A stretch of DNA of 64,000 nt, from assembly GCF_000975135.1 (NCBI RefSeq), contig NZ_BBRF01000001.1:1800380-1864379 (forward strand), read 5' to 3'. The stretch comes from Demequina aurantiaca. Lineage in GTDB: Bacteria; Actinomycetota; Actinomycetes; Actinomycetales; Demequinaceae. Below are positions 5,023-15,775 of the stretch, piece after piece. A model generated the notes under the pieces. That model saw only the letters and a program-made list of their open reading frames with translations. It did not search any database and was not told the origin of the DNA. The stretch's first letter is position 1; the number at the start of each line of letters is the position of its first letter. Position numbers and translations under genes: made by a program.

Positions 5023-5769
5023 CTACTTGGGGTTGATGCCCCGCAGTCGTACCGCGTCCTCGGCGGCGCGCACCTTGGCCATGCTTTCCTGTTCGGCCGC
5101 GTCGTAGCGCGCCTGAGCATTGTTGGCCTCGATGGTCGCGTTTGAATTCGCTTCGGCGACCTCCTGCTCCGCGGCCGCCACGGCATCGTCCCGTTGCTTC
5201 TGCAGCGTCTCCACGTGCGCCGCGGCGCTCGTGATCTTGGCGGCCAGGGCGCGGACCTCGGCCTCCTTACCGAGAGCGAACGTCACCACATCGGAAATGC
5301 CGTTGCCGCCGAGTGTCAGTGCTACGGTCCGGGTATCCACCGCATCGTCCGTGCCCTCCACGCCATCGGCGACGGCGGGTGAGCCCGTGATGTCCGCGCT
5401 CGCTGTGGTCTGGGGTGTGATCGCATATTCGCCCGATGGTGTGGTGATCATCAGGCCAGTAAATGACACGGTGCCGTTCGCGCCCTTCAGCGAGTCGATC
5501 TTGTCGCTGCCAATGGCGGTCGCCTCCCTGAGGCGATCCTCGGCGCGTTTGGTGCGCTTGCGGGATTCCTTCTCGGTGGCCTTGAGGTCGCTGGCGAGTT
5601 CACTGATACGGGTCGAGTATTGCTCCTTGGCATAGACGAGCTCGCGCTCCTCCGGGGTCAGCGCGGCGAAGGTGCGGGCCTTGCGCCGACGAATCGCCAC
5701 GACCAATACGACCGCGAGTACTGCGACGATGGCCAGGCCGACGATGATGAGTACGGTGTTGCTGTCCAT
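5023..5769 (-). CDS. Single-pass membrane protein with coiled coils
   Basis: This 248-residue protein begins with a transmembrane helix (residues 5-27, then RRRK), suggesting N-terminus out and the bulk in the cytoplasm. Coiled-coil regions cover about 45-88 and 170-240, rich in Ala, Glu, Gln and Lys. The middle (95-155) is a small beta-rich segment with GTVSFTGLMITTPSGEY. The gene is convergent with the gene ending at 4988 and divergent from hisH. No family is recognised. The topology resembles scaffold-like membrane proteins, but this is inference from composition only. Confidence 0.75.
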   Translation of the reverse strand: MDSNTVLIIVGLAIVAVLAVVLVVAIRRRKARTFAALTPEERELVYAKEQYSTRISELASDLKATEKESRKRTKRAEDRLREATAIGSDKIDSLKGANGTVSFTGLMITTPSGEYAITPQTTASADITGSPAVADGVEGTDDAVDTRTVALTLGGNGISDVVTFALGKEAEVRALAAKITSAAAHVETLQKQRDDAVAAAEQEVAEANSNATIEANNAQARYDAAEQESMAKVRAAEDAVRLRGINPK

Positions 5770-8267: not shown

Positions 8268-9008
8268 CTACCCGCAGTCAGCGTCATTCGGCAGCTGAAG
8301 CGACGTGTCCGACAGGAACGTGTTCAGTGACTGCAGGGTGACCGCAAAGCTCTCTCCCTTTTTGTCCGTCGCGTAGAGGACTCCCACCACCTGGCCGTTG
8401 GGGTCATAGACGGCGGAGCCGGAATTGCCGTGCTCGGCCTCCACCTTGATGAGGTCGACGTCGTCGCGGCCCTGGCCAATAGTGTCGGGCACGCGCTTCA
8501 CATACGGCCCGGTGCGAGTCTCGAGTGGTCCGCCGAGGGGGTAGCCCACGACGTCCAGTTCGTCGTCCGGCGCGGGTTCGGCGCTACCGATGGGGGCCGC
8601 GAACTCCAGCGGCTCGTCGACGGTCACTAGCGCGAGGTCCGCGAAGTCGGCCATCACGGAGGACGTTCCCTCGTACTGCTCACCGTCGTACGTGGTCAGC
8701 GTGATGTTTTGCGCGTCCTCGACCACGTGACGGTTGGTGACGACCGTATGCGCGTCCAGCATGAAGCCAGAGCCCACGGTGAACTCGTCGCACGTGCGCG
8801 CCCGGATCCGCAACGCGGCATGCTCCTGGTCGGTGAATCCATCGGCGACAGTGACCGCGGCGACGCTGGGCGAGGCGGACGGTGTGGGAGTGGTGGACGT
8901 GTTCGCGGTGTCAGGTGCGGTCGACGGCAGGGGCGGCGGCGACTGCGGCAGGACGGAGCAACCGGCAAGCGCGACCGCGGCGGGGACCAGCAGCAGAAGG
9001 CGGCGCAC
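8268..9008 (-). CDS. Trypsin-like serine protease lipoprotein, module 1
   Basis: This 246-residue protein is exported and lipid-anchored at Cys17 (lipobox LAGC). A Pro/Thr/Ser-rich linker (20-50) precedes a chymotrypsin-fold domain of the HtrA/S1C-like type, without a PDZ domain. The triad is His93 (TNRHV), Asp124 (ADLAL) and Ser196 (HGNSGSAV). Cys73 and Cys245 may form a disulfide tying the C-terminus to the domain. The GTG start lies 3 bases behind the coiled-coil gene at 9012-9674. It is paralogous to the protease at 9685-10413 in both sequence and gene order. Confidence 0.88.
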   Translation of the reverse strand: MRRLLLLVPAAVALAGCSVLPQSPPPLPSTAPDTANTSTTPTPSASPSVAAVTVADGFTDQEHAALRIRARTCDEFTVGSGFMLDAHTVVTNRHVVEDAQNITLTTYDGEQYEGTSSVMADFADLALVTVDEPLEFAAPIGSAEPAPDDELDVVGYPLGGPLETRTGPYVKRVPDTIGQGRDDVDLIKVEAEHGNSGSAVYDPNGQVVGVLYATDKKGESFAVTLQSLNTFLSDTSLQLPNDADCG

Positions 9009-9011
9009 GTG

Positions 9012-9674
9012 TCAGCTCGACTTAAGTGAGGCCTGGTAGTCCAGGTAAGACTGTTCGACGTCACTGCAGTAATTGGAGACGTCGCGACCCTCCGCCGCGA
9101 GGCTCGAGGCCGTATAGCGTGATGCGTTCTCGAGATGAGAGATGTGGCTGGCTTGAGCCTCTGCGCACTGCTGGAAGGAGTCAGCCAGCTCGGTCAGAAA
9201 GGCCGCCTGGTCCTTGGCGTTCGCCGAGCTGTCGGCAAGATCGGTGACCTTGCCCGTGGCGCCCTCGAGGTTCTCCTGAGCGTTGGTGAGTTCCGCCTGC
9301 AGGCCCTGGATCTGCGCGTTGTTTTCCGCAACGTCCGCGTTCAGCGAGGCCACCTGGGTGCGTAGCTCGTCGTTTTGATCCTGCCATTGTTCGTTGATCA
9401 CCCACAGGTACGCGGCAAGCGTGGCGAGTCCGGCGCACACCACCGCCAACACCACCACCCACCCTCGAGCATGCGACTTCTTGACGGGAGGCGGGGAGAA
9501 AGCGGTAGGTGGCGAAGCATCGGCGGACGATGCAGCGGTGGTGTGGGGCGGGTCGCTGCGGACCGGAGGCGGTGAGGTGGAGGAGAACACCGGCAGGCCG
9601 CTCTTTGGCGCGACGACAGGGAACCGTGTTTCCCTGTCGCTCGGCCTGCTGGTGGGCTCGTCGTTCGTGCTCAT
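9012..9674 (-). CDS. Membrane-anchored coiled-coil protein, module 1
   Basis: This 220-residue protein has a long disordered Pro/Ser-rich cytoplasmic tail (1-67), one transmembrane helix (about 70-92) and an extracellular coiled coil (95-165). It ends in a small helical part with two cysteines (in QQCAEAQ and NYCSDVE). It is directly upstream of, and surely co-transcribed with, the protease at 8268-9008. The gene at 10410-11081 has the same architecture and the same two-cysteine layout. Family unknown. It could sense or present substrate to the protease, which is inference. Confidence 0.8.
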   Translation of the reverse strand: MSTNDEPTSRPSDRETRFPVVAPKSGLPVFSSTSPPPVRSDPPHTTAASSADASPPTAFSPPPVKKSHARGWVVVLAVVCAGLATLAAYLWVINEQWQDQNDELRTQVASLNADVAENNAQIQGLQAELTNAQENLEGATGKVTDLADSSANAKDQAAFLTELADSFQQCAEAQASHISHLENASRYTASSLAAEGRDVSNYCSDVEQSYLDYQASLKSS

Positions 9675-9684
9675 GGAGTCATGC

Positions 9685-10413
9685 CTAGCACTGTGCGGCT
9701 TCGGGCACCAGTAGCGAGGTCTCGTCCAACAGCGTCTTCAGGGTAGAGACGGGCACTATGAAACTCTGGTTGGACTTGTTTTTGGCGTAGACCACGCCCA
9801 CCACTCGCCCGTCCTCGTCGAGCACCGGAGACCCGGATGAGCCCGGCTCGACGGTGGCCGTCGTGGCCAGCACGGCGCCGATCGCACTACCGAGCGGATC
9901 CGGAGACTCGCCCAACACGATCCCGGATACCGTGCTGAGGCGGCCGCCCTTGGGGTAGCCCACCACGGTGACGACATCGGACTCGACGGGGTCCTGGCGG
10001 GCGACGTTGGCGAACGTTCCTCCCAGTGACTCTTCGGTGGTGATGATGGCGATGTCGGCGACCGTGGTCGTAGACGCGGTGGTCGCGTTGATCGACCGGC
10101 CGTCGTAGGTTTGAACCTGAATCTTCTTGGTGTCCTCGATCACGTGGCGGTTGGTGACGAGGGTGTGGGCGTCCAGGGCAAAGCCGGTGCCGGTCGAGAT
10201 GAATCCACACCCCACGTTGCGCACCCGCACGGTCATGCGCTGAGCGGCGGTGAAGCCGTCGGGGGACAGGGCGCCGGGTCCTTCGCCGGGGGAGACCGAG
10301 GGCGCAGGAACAAAGTTGGTCGGCAGTGAGCCTGGCGCGTCGGGTAGCAGGCTGCAACCAGACAGCGCCAACGTGCACGCGGCGACCAAGGCGGCAACAG
10401 ACCGTGACCTCAC
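9685..10413 (-). CDS. Trypsin-like serine protease lipoprotein, module 2
   Basis: The GTG start at 10413 overlaps the stop of the upstream coiled-coil gene (CAGTGA) and gives 242 residues with a clean signal peptide. Extending the frame to 10914 would add residues antisense-like in character. The lipobox LSGC places Cys20 at the lipid anchor. The triad is His90 (TNRHV), Asp120 (ADIAI) and Ser193 (GSSGSPV), so activity is expected. Cys69 and the last residue Cys242 mirror the possible disulfide of the paralogue at 8268-9008. Confidence 0.87.
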   Translation of the reverse strand: MRSRSVAALVAACTLALSGCSLLPDAPGSLPTNFVPAPSVSPGEGPGALSPDGFTAAQRMTVRVRNVGCGFISTGTGFALDAHTLVTNRHVIEDTKKIQVQTYDGRSINATTASTTTVADIAIITTEESLGGTFANVARQDPVESDVVTVVGYPKGGRLSTVSGIVLGESPDPLGSAIGAVLATTATVEPGSSGSPVLDEDGRVVGVVYAKNKSNQSFIVPVSTLKTLLDETSLLVPEAAQC

Positions 10414-11081
10414 TGCGCGAGTTCCTTCTGCAGGTTGGAGTTGGCCTTCTCTGCGTTGTCGCACAGTTCCTTCACGCTGTCCTGATAGTCGGTGATCTCC
10501 TCGGGCGTGTATTCCTCGTCGCTGGCGAGGGTCTCGGCGAGTTCCTGCTGCCCATCCGTGCAGCGCTGCAGCCCGTTGGCGACGGACGCGGCTTTCGCGA
10601 GCAGGTCCTCGGTTGCCTCGACTTGTTGTTGTGCAAACTCCGTGTCGTCGCGCCACTGCGCTTTCTGGTCGGACAGCTGGAGCACGGTGTCCTTGGAGTT
10701 CGACAATTGCTCTTCGAGTAGGTCGATGTTGTCGTTCAGGCGCACGTTTTCGGTCTTCTCGTCCGCGACCTGCTTGCCGAGGACGTAGCTCGTGTCGGTG
10801 ATCTCGTCGACCTGACTCGACCACTCGTTCGAGCGCACGCTCGCCTCGTAGGTCATGGTGGTCGAGGCGGCCAGTAGGCCCAGCAAGATGAGGATCGCTA
10901 CGATCCAGGGCCACCGGCGGCGAGGCTTCGCGGTGCTAGTGCGCATTCGCGGGGAGGTTTCGACATCACCAGGCGCGGCGTCGCTTTGTACACCGGTCTG
11001 CGCGTCAGACACCTCAGTGTCTTCAATGCGAGATTCGGTTTTTACGCGGCCTTCGTCCGCCTCTGGTGTGTCGTCTGCCAA
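10410..11081 (-). CDS. Membrane-anchored coiled-coil protein, module 2
   Basis: The 223-residue protein has an acidic N-terminal tail (1-50), a transmembrane helix (about 53-72) and a long extracellular coiled coil (75-165). A helical end follows with two cysteines (LQRCTDGQ and ELCDNAEK). Translation appears to start at TTG 11081, immediately after the TAA of the DUF1844 gene; GGGAG lies 11 bases upstream. The four-gene run from 11081 to 8268 is one probable operon with DUF1844 as its first gene. Confidence 0.78.
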   Translation of the reverse strand: MADDTPEADEGRVKTESRIEDTEVSDAQTGVQSDAAPGDVETSPRMRTSTAKPRRRWPWIVAILILLGLLAASTTMTYEASVRSNEWSSQVDEITDTSYVLGKQVADEKTENVRLNDNIDLLEEQLSNSKDTVLQLSDQKAQWRDDTEFAQQQVEATEDLLAKAASVANGLQRCTDGQQELAETLASDEEYTPEEITDYQDSVKELCDNAEKANSNLQKELAQ

Positions 11082-14170: not shown

Positions 14171-15775
14171 ATGAACGTGAGCGCAGGCCGTCGTCCTCGC
14201 TCGCTCAGCCGTTCCCGGAGCCTGCTCATCGGGGCGGCGGTTCTGATCGCGATCCTGCTGGTGCAGATGGTCACGTCCGTCATTGGCGCCGTGGTCGCGC
14301 AACGACAGGCGGTGGATGCGGCTAAGGACACGTTCTCCTACGTCGGAGACCTGACGGCGGAACGGGTGTCTCGTTTTGCCCAGGCGGGCGAGGAGGTCGT
14401 GGGCGCCACGACGGCGGCGATCGACGACGCAGACACCGTCACGCTCGACGACGCCGCCCATCTGATGTACCTGGCTTTGGAACGCGCGCCCGAGGTGCGG
14501 GGTGCCTACGTCGGATTCCCCGACGGGACTTTTGTGTCGGTGAGCCACGTCGGCACCGGGTACACGTCGCAGCGAGTGGAGATTGCGCCGGAGTACCGCG
14601 TCACACAGATCACCTACGACGCGACGTTCGCATCGATCGCCACCGAGGAGCTGGACCTGCGCTACGACCCGCGCGAGCGGCCCTGGTACATCGCGGGCGC
14701 GGACTCACTCAATACGGTCTGGACCCAGCCGTACTTGCTGTTCGACACCAACGTGACGTTCGCGTCCGTGACTCGTGCCTCACGGGACAGGGATGGGGTC
14801 CATGCTGTTATTGGTGCGGACCTGGACGTTGACCAGATGGCGACCGTGCTCGACAACTTGCCGCTGGGTGACGGCGCCGAGGCATTCGTGATGTCTCCCG
14901 ACCGGAGGGTGATCGCCGCACCGTCCAGCTATCGGGAACAGCTGCGAGCGACCGCGGGGCTCAGGGGAGAGGTGCCGCAGGCGAGCGACATCGGTGTGGG
15001 TTCGGAGGCGGTAGCGACGTCGTACGAGGACGGCGACGTCTTTGGCCGTGACGATGGTCGCCTCACGTTGGAACGGGGCTTTCGTAAGAAGGAGGGATTA
15101 GATTGGATCCTTCACCTTGAGGCTGACGAGAGTCAGTTGTCGCCGGGACTGGATCGCTTGCAGTTGACGATCTATGCGATAACCGCGTTCTCCGCGCTGA
15201 TGGTGATTGCCGTCGCGGTACTGATGTACCGCATGTGGCGACCGCTGCGCCGGCTAAGCGTCCGTGCACGCACCGATCAACTGACCGGTCTAGCCAACCG
15301 CCACGAATACCGCGCCCGCGGTAATGCGATGCTGCGGCGAGCGCAGTCGCGTGGCGACACGGTGGTGGTGGCCGCGTTCGACATGGACAATTTCAAGGAC
15401 GTGAACGACGCATTCGGTCACCTGGCAGGAGACACCGCACTCAGGGTCGCCGGAGATGCGTTGCTGGCCGCGTCCCGCGAGAGTGACGTGGTGGCACGTA
15501 TGGGCGGCGACGAGTTTATGGTGATGCAGGTGGTGGCGGAAGGCGCCGATGCCGCAGAGGTTGTTGAGCGCGTGCGGGCGGCGGTGGTCCACACGGTTCA
15601 AACCACTACCGCTGGTGGTGACCGGGTGGGGCTGACCGCCGGCTACACCCTGTCGCGTGAGGGCTCGTTCGACCTGGACGGGCTGACAGCGCAGGCGGAT
15701 GCGGCACTGCTGTACGGCAAGCGCAACGGCAAGGGTGCGACATACCGCTACGAGCGCCCCGCCGAGCCCAAGTAG
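14171..15775 (+). CDS. Membrane diguanylate cyclase with Cache-like sensor
   Basis: This 534-residue enzyme should make cyclic di-GMP from GTP. A transmembrane helix (about 17-40) and a second (about 337-356) enclose a large extracytoplasmic region (45-335). Its features (RYDPRERPWYIAG near 160-172) are those of a dCache ligand-binding domain, e.g. for small organic ligands. The cytoplasmic GGDEF domain has an intact GGDEF at 445-449. An inhibitory-site RxxD (Arg436-Asp439) stands exactly five residues before it, so product feedback is expected. It is transcribed alone after the methyltransferase gene. Confidence 0.92.
   Translation: MNVSAGRRPRSLSRSRSLLIGAAVLIAILLVQMVTSVIGAVVAQRQAVDAAKDTFSYVGDLTAERVSRFAQAGEEVVGATTAAIDDADTVTLDDAAHLMYLALERAPEVRGAYVGFPDGTFVSVSHVGTGYTSQRVEIAPEYRVTQITYDATFASIATEELDLRYDPRERPWYIAGADSLNTVWTQPYLLFDTNVTFASVTRASRDRDGVHAVIGADLDVDQMATVLDNLPLGDGAEAFVMSPDRRVIAAPSSYREQLRATAGLRGEVPQASDIGVGSEAVATSYEDGDVFGRDDGRLTLERGFRKKEGLDWILHLEADESQLSPGLDRLQLTIYAITAFSALMVIAVAVLMYRMWRPLRRLSVRARTDQLTGLANRHEYRARGNAMLRRAQSRGDTVVVAAFDMDNFKDVNDAFGHLAGDTALRVAGDALLAASRESDVVARMGGDEFMVMQVVAEGADAAEVVERVRAAVVHTVQTTTAGGDRVGLTAGYTLSREGSFDLDGLTAQADAALLYGKRNGKGATYRYERPAEPK

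Follow-up and report, generated by a model that had tools for sequence, protein, structure and literature searches.

MarP (Rv3671c; NF033740), the mycobacterial acid resistance protease, is an example of a membrane-tethered serine protease that, according to the available parts of two reports, governs wall hydrolysis and acid survival (PMC4992679, PMC7554673). In the accessible text of these papers, the MarP chain is described as bearing four membrane helices (PMC4992679), the membrane tether as necessary (PMC4992679, PMC7554673), the enzyme as activated by disulfide reduction (PMC4992679) and the wall hydrolase RipA as a protein that MarP processes, more strongly in acid (PMC7554673). Two further systems resemble the locus described here. 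The HtrA/DegP/DegS proteases (Do family) share the fold of the enzyme (Z up to 26), and in DegS–RseA signalling a membrane-tethered protease likewise stands beside a single-pass membrane protein.

We analysed a stretch of 64,000 nucleotides (the window) from the 2.57 Mb genome of Demequina aurantiaca. Its positions 8268–11081 hold a two-gene module twice in tandem, each copy consisting of a gene for a coil protein followed by a gene for a lipobox protease (Table 1), just as a first-pass annotation had proposed. The annotation had also described neighbouring stops and starts as overlapping or almost touching, and indeed coil2 and protease2 overlap by 4 nt, and gaps of 10 nt and 3 nt separate protease2 from coil1 and coil1 from protease1, respectively. 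Read in the direction of translation on the minus strand (11468–8268), the order is DUF1844, coil2, protease2, coil1, protease1; the DUF1844 gene is a fifth member that the annotation did not include, and its stop directly abuts the coil2 start. In most genomes of the genus, a coil2 start codon is no more than a few bases away from where DUF1844 stops, which supports the TTG start assigned to coil2. Throughout the genus, DUF1844 is the upstream gene of the same run; in loci of a related family (f9) it lies close to the pair, and it was not found in more distant loci. The five-gene run is flanked by hisH-hisA-sseB and infC-rpmI-rplT (gene names by our reading of the window's frames). Taken jointly with the wider reading set out below, we lean towards explaining the region as an obligate coil and protease module of two genes that has been duplicated in tandem.

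Table 1. Positions and predicted parts of the five-gene run in the window.
Feature	Protein	Positions	Strand	Length and start codon	Parts
DUF1844 gene	P0005	11082..11468	-		Pfam PF08899 (5.7e-15)
coil2	P0004	10410..11081	-	223 aa, TTG	Cytoplasmic tail (acidic, disordered); single membrane helix; coiled coil; helical hairpin carrying C174 and C207
protease2	P0003	9685..10413	-	242 aa, GTG	Lipobox Cys20, flexible linker, chymotrypsin fold; His90, Asp120, Ser193; Cys69 (His-21), terminal Cys242
coil1	P0002	9012..9674	-	220 aa, ATG	Tail rich in Pro and Ser; single membrane helix; coil shorter than in coil2; C170 and C203
protease1	P0001	8268..9008	-	246 aa, GTG	Lipobox Cys17, Trypsin_2, intact triad, Cys73 (His-21), Cys245 at end; paralogue of protease2

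Elsewhere in the window, positions 5023–5769 (minus strand) encode another small protein that by eye has coil-like stretches and a membrane segment at its N-terminus; no kinship to the pair was seen. At 14171–15775 (plus strand) lies the gene of a likely diguanylate cyclase, by eye a membrane protein that has both a portion outside the cell and a GGDEF-like domain.

Both window proteases exhibited the features that had been claimed for them, namely a lipobox Cys, the triad, a Cys before the domain (21 residues ahead of the catalytic His) and a second Cys at the end. Scans against Pfam returned Trypsin_2 (E 8.5e-22 for P0001 and 2.2e-24 for P0003) and Trypsin, no PDZ family was among the matches, and the chain ends about 152 residues past the His. 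The two proteases share 40% identity (E 1e-53), and the AlphaFold2 model of P0003 shows a chymotrypsin-type fold (pLDDT 90). By predicted fold and triad, the pair protease is a chymotrypsin-fold serine protease. Its key residues are nearly invariant among 125 aligned pair proteases, a count from which we excluded the named loci L172–L196, several of which duplicate genomes already represented (L193, for instance, is the genome of L153). The catalytic H, D and S were intact in 125/125, a Cys in the lipobox column of the signal peptide, the putative site of acylation, was present in 124/125, and the His-21 and terminal cysteines were both kept in 124/125, the exception being locus L253.

Among solved structures, the closest relative of these enzymes by profile is MarP. 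Profile searches of the PDB gave MarP Rv3671c (3k6y) as the best match (8.7e-27), with the His-21 Cys aligned, and superposition of the fold on 3k6y yielded Z 25.0 over 187 residues (rmsd 2.6), a value tied with those of HtrA/Deg chains (Z about 26). The cysteines separate these families: in 40 MarP rows, classed by at least three upstream hydrophobic segments, the first Cys stood exactly at His-21 in 38 (at -20 and -25 in the other two) and the terminal Cys was present in all 40, whereas the pair was missing from all nine HtrA rows. Pair proteases and MarP thus have in common an extracytoplasmic chymotrypsin-fold domain, the triad and both cysteines. In contrast to MarP, the pair proteases carry a lipobox signal peptide only, together with a separate coil protein, and no four-helix membrane domain in the chain; they also fall below the curated NF033740 cut-off (89.7 and 87.8 bits for the window proteases vs 250) and outside the MarP clade. 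From the HtrA/Do proteases they further differ by the lack of a PDZ domain, and the window proteases had no HtrA match over the curated cut-off. A maximum-likelihood tree of 97 rows, which used 43 chosen pair rows of 154 and whose bootstrap had not fully settled, placed the 43 pair proteases in one group (99/97), the 40 MarP sequences in another (100/99) and the nine HtrA sequences in a third (99/86). Within the pair group, the Demequina protease1 and protease2 sequences formed two clades, the latter taking in the sister-genus genome G186. This topology fits a duplication within the family, although protease1 evolves faster. Also found was a MarP-like frame of 244 aa in a bacterial MAG (L228:2854–3585, plus strand) with two cysteines, one upstream hydrophobic segment and a long tree branch.

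Regarding the distribution of MarP itself, the best MarP score was far under the cut-off in 35/35 genomes of the family, from which true MarP thus appears to be missing. A hand tally across the order counted MarP over the cut-off in 16 of 78 coil-bearing genomes vs 160 of the 318 others. A strict replacement of MarP by the pair was rejected, because both coexist in those 16/78 genomes and families with neither exist. We likewise rejected a role in anti-phage defence: in PADLOC, the matches of P0001 and P0003 to RT-Protease and similar models were confined to the protease portion, P0002 gave weak coil matches only and P0004 none.

The coil proteins are the less familiar half of the module. In agreement with the annotated topology, P0004 and P0002 each contain a single hydrophobic segment, a helix predicted to be long and a pair of cysteines close to the C-terminal end; P0002 has one further Cys inside the membrane segment. 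The two proteins are only 21% identical (E 7e-5), and one joint profile recovers both, which, like the similarity of the proteases, reflects common descent. The two cysteines were the only invariant positions in a joint alignment of 35 coil sequences. According to the AlphaFold2 model of P0004, a poorly ordered tail (residues 1–55) is followed by a single helix (57–139) spanning the membrane segment and the coil, and then by a helical hairpin (141–186 and 193–222, pLDDT mostly 92–98) that carries one Cys per helix, so that C174 and C207 fall in two antiparallel helices. Scanning P0004 against Pfam and NCBIfam at E≤1e-4 returned zero families, and at the same threshold each family matched at most two of 26 coil members, those families being generic coil models; the coil protein lies outside every curated Pfam/NCBIfam family. 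The P0004 model had zero matches in the PDB at E≤0.001, a result that says nothing on fold novelty, and the coil profile found generic coiled coils only among solved structures. The label "sensor", which had been attached to the coil protein, was not borne out: the model shows its cytoplasmic tail as disordered, the length of this tail ranges across loci from about 33 to 183 residues, and Pfam and NCBIfam scans recognised no domain in it.

The spacing and the losses of the cysteines are informative. In most loci 30–37 residues separate the two coil cysteines, and 55–62 where the inter-helix loop has grown; the cysteines thus remain paired even when the intervening stretch expands from about 33 residues. 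In four Quadrisphaera-type loci (L065 and L152–L154), the coil stops before the hairpin and lacks both cysteines, yet it still precedes a protease, and that protease keeps its own Cys pair. The reverse is seen in L253, where the protease is without both cysteines and the coil retains both. As each Cys pair is lost within one protein, these cases point to one disulfide inside each partner and none linking the two. An intermolecular disulfide between coil and protease was rejected on these grounds, given that either protein can lose both its cysteines while its partner loses none. The coil hairpin is thus probably locked by an internal disulfide of its own, and another would probably brace the protease domain. 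Moreover, the hairpin is not essential for pairing, since Quadrisphaera-type genomes manage without it.

The gene pairing extends across the phylum. Counting each examined locus once and leaving out L172–L196, L272 and L273, we collected 138 proteases from 104 loci in 103 genomes. Of these, 131 came immediately after a coil with a score above 30 bits; one shared an open frame with its coil (G009), six followed a diverged single-pass, two-Cys coil protein, and none was found without a coil partner (0/138). Because many loci had been picked by their coil, a protease-led scan is the fairer test for a protease lacking a coil, as a coil-led scan is for a coil lacking a protease. The protease-led scan of 396 phylum genomes revealed 18 genomes besides the window's own, with a coil pair in 16 (16/18): ten had a recognised coil directly upstream, and in six the upstream gene encoded a single-pass coil protein that has two cysteines late in its chain but scored only 2–27 bits against the coil profile. 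The two exceptions were not of the lipobox type, L272 being a degenerate gene that has neither lipobox nor cysteines and L273 a MarP-type protease with its own membrane helices. Three weak coil matches from the phylum scan (L262–L264) had no adjoining protease and were counted as ordinary coiled coils. The coil-led scan of 396 order genomes gave 94 with coil-profile matches at E≤1e-3. Among these, 78 were strong (E≤1e-8, a limit set after the list was seen), and the protease adjoined the coil in 78/78, with both in the same frame in G009; the 16 weaker matches (E about 2e-5 to 1e-3) lie outside this count. Hence, both scan directions supported what the first-pass annotation had suggested, namely a proteolytic module tethered to the membrane and encoded by two genes that form a unit, and rare co-occurrence, which would have spoken against such a module, proved to be the opposite of what is found.

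The arrangement of the pair is equally regular. Only three of 135 coils were not directly ahead of a protease, two being the first coil of coil-coil-protease sets (L132, L133) and one a piece of a coil2 split over two frames in G027 (L083), probably through an assembly error or a frameshift. At 94 of 130 junctions the genes overlapped by 4 nt, and 125/130 fell within -8 to +30 nt; these figures, which exclude L172–L196, rest on choosing the start codon nearest the coil stop, a rule biased toward small gaps. The coil gene adjoins the protease gene in Demequina, Cellulomonas, Isoptericola, Georgenia and others, and the pairing is also found outside the hisA/infC neighbourhood, for example in L133, L147, L148, L152–L154, Intrasporangium calvum and Nitriliruptorales MAGs. 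Within the genus, orthologues of coil2 and protease2 stood side by side in 37/37 genomes. The second pair was present in 29/37, whereas the remaining eight had neither its coil nor its protease. No substrate gene travelling with the module was seen in the neighbourhoods of the examined loci, and searches for plasmid-borne relatives gave generic protease matches only, none spanning 80% of the query.

Some loci depart from the standard layout. In G009 (L080:4183–5565, plus strand), coil2 and protease2 occupy one uninterrupted frame with an ATG ahead of the lipobox signal, which reflects either a fusion that arose naturally or the loss of a stop codon combined with an internal start. G186 (loci L132 and L133), which belongs to the same family and another genus, contains at the usual place a coil-protease pair plus a coil-coil-protease set; a second place also holds coil-coil-protease, giving two different coils per protease. 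The gene at L272:939–1613 (minus strand, genome G686) is a stand-alone relative of the pair protease that lacks lipobox and cysteines and has a TAG flagged in frame.

With moderate confidence, we regard the pair as an obligate two-part membrane protease in which a MarP-like enzyme works with a separate coil partner in trans. The first gene would supply a coil protein that a single helix anchors in the membrane and whose outside coil is tipped by the helical hairpin, and the second a lipoprotein with a MarP-like protease domain on a linker of about 49 residues. Coil and protease would then form a membrane-bound complex on the outward-facing side of the membrane, with the coil as a dedicated partner that may hold, position or control the protease, doing in trans the job that the four-helix membrane domain of MarP does in cis. 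Such a complex would cleave a small number of envelope proteins (one or a few), for example a wall hydrolase, in the way MarP processes RipA, and might, like MarP, be needed under acid or oxidative stress. The genome encodes two NlpC/P60 wall hydrolases, which are the first candidate substrates. By analogy with the tether and disulfide reported for MarP, the coil partner would thus control or position the lipid-anchored protease.

The dimensions of the two proteins would allow contact. From membrane helix to hairpin the median distance was 94 residues, and the protease linker had a median of 49; the corresponding reach of about 14 nm for the helix vs about 17 nm for the extended linker implies, as a matter of geometry only, that hairpin and protease could meet. 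Coil distance and linker length correlated weakly (Spearman 0.38 over 117 pairs, not corrected for descent), and pair 1 of the window was off this trend (coil 76, linker 56). Partial distance correlations amounted to 0.75 for coil1–protease1 and 0.53 for coil2–protease2, with cross pairs reaching up to 0.48 and 0.42 and the bystander DUF1844 giving 0.39–0.57. The co-evolution signal between the partners is weak and not clearly above that of DUF1844.

An unlikely explanation, in our view, is that the coil is the substrate of the protease and is cut outside, a stub or the released hairpin then signalling in the manner of DegS/RseA. The single-pass topology with a cytoplasmic tail and the strict pairing would suit a dedicated substrate, and DegS was among the close fold matches. 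However, the tail offers nothing obvious to release into the cytoplasm, being disordered, about 33–183 residues long and free of conserved domains, anti-sigma domains included; moreover, the Pfam scan found no PDZ domain in the protease, and the conserved part of the coil protein is the hairpin, which lies outside. We judge it just as improbable that the coil is an inhibitor or maturation factor that silences or folds the protease until an envelope change such as redox or acid releases it. The coil gene comes first and the protease gene second, with coupled reading frames, and a control-protein gene ahead of its enzyme gene is a usual order. Independent Cys pairs in both partners could respond to a redox change, and disulfide reduction is reported, in the available part of the source, to activate MarP (PMC4992679); against this, the module persists in Quadrisphaera-type loci despite the natural loss of the coil hairpin. 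The least probable alternative is co-transcription only, with both genes serving the same envelope process and their products making no direct contact, because the pair holds together in several unrelated neighbourhoods and doubles and vanishes as a unit, even though operon order by itself requires no contact and the DUF1844 distance correlations almost match those between the partners.

A literature search, with most subscription journals outside its reach, found no description of the coil/protease pair. The pair had been put forward as an undescribed system, and this holds for the combination in the literature searched; it does not hold for the protease type, which is MarP/HtrA-like and already known. 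What would be new here is that a protease of the MarP-like kind depends on an obligate partner acting in trans. More tentatively, and at less than even confidence, we propose that the pair constitutes an undescribed two-component protease of Actinomycetota in which a stalk formed by a new family of disulfide-capped coil proteins, with a reach similar to that of the protease linker, gates or aims a lipid-anchored MarP-like protease in trans, duplicated in Demequina. If this is true, the two coils per protease in G186 would suggest that the coil is a variable element for targeting or dimerisation. A protease branch without a built-in anchor, bound gene by gene to a coil, makes the function of the membrane part open to study, and a conserved coil protein of unknown function thereby gains a testable role.
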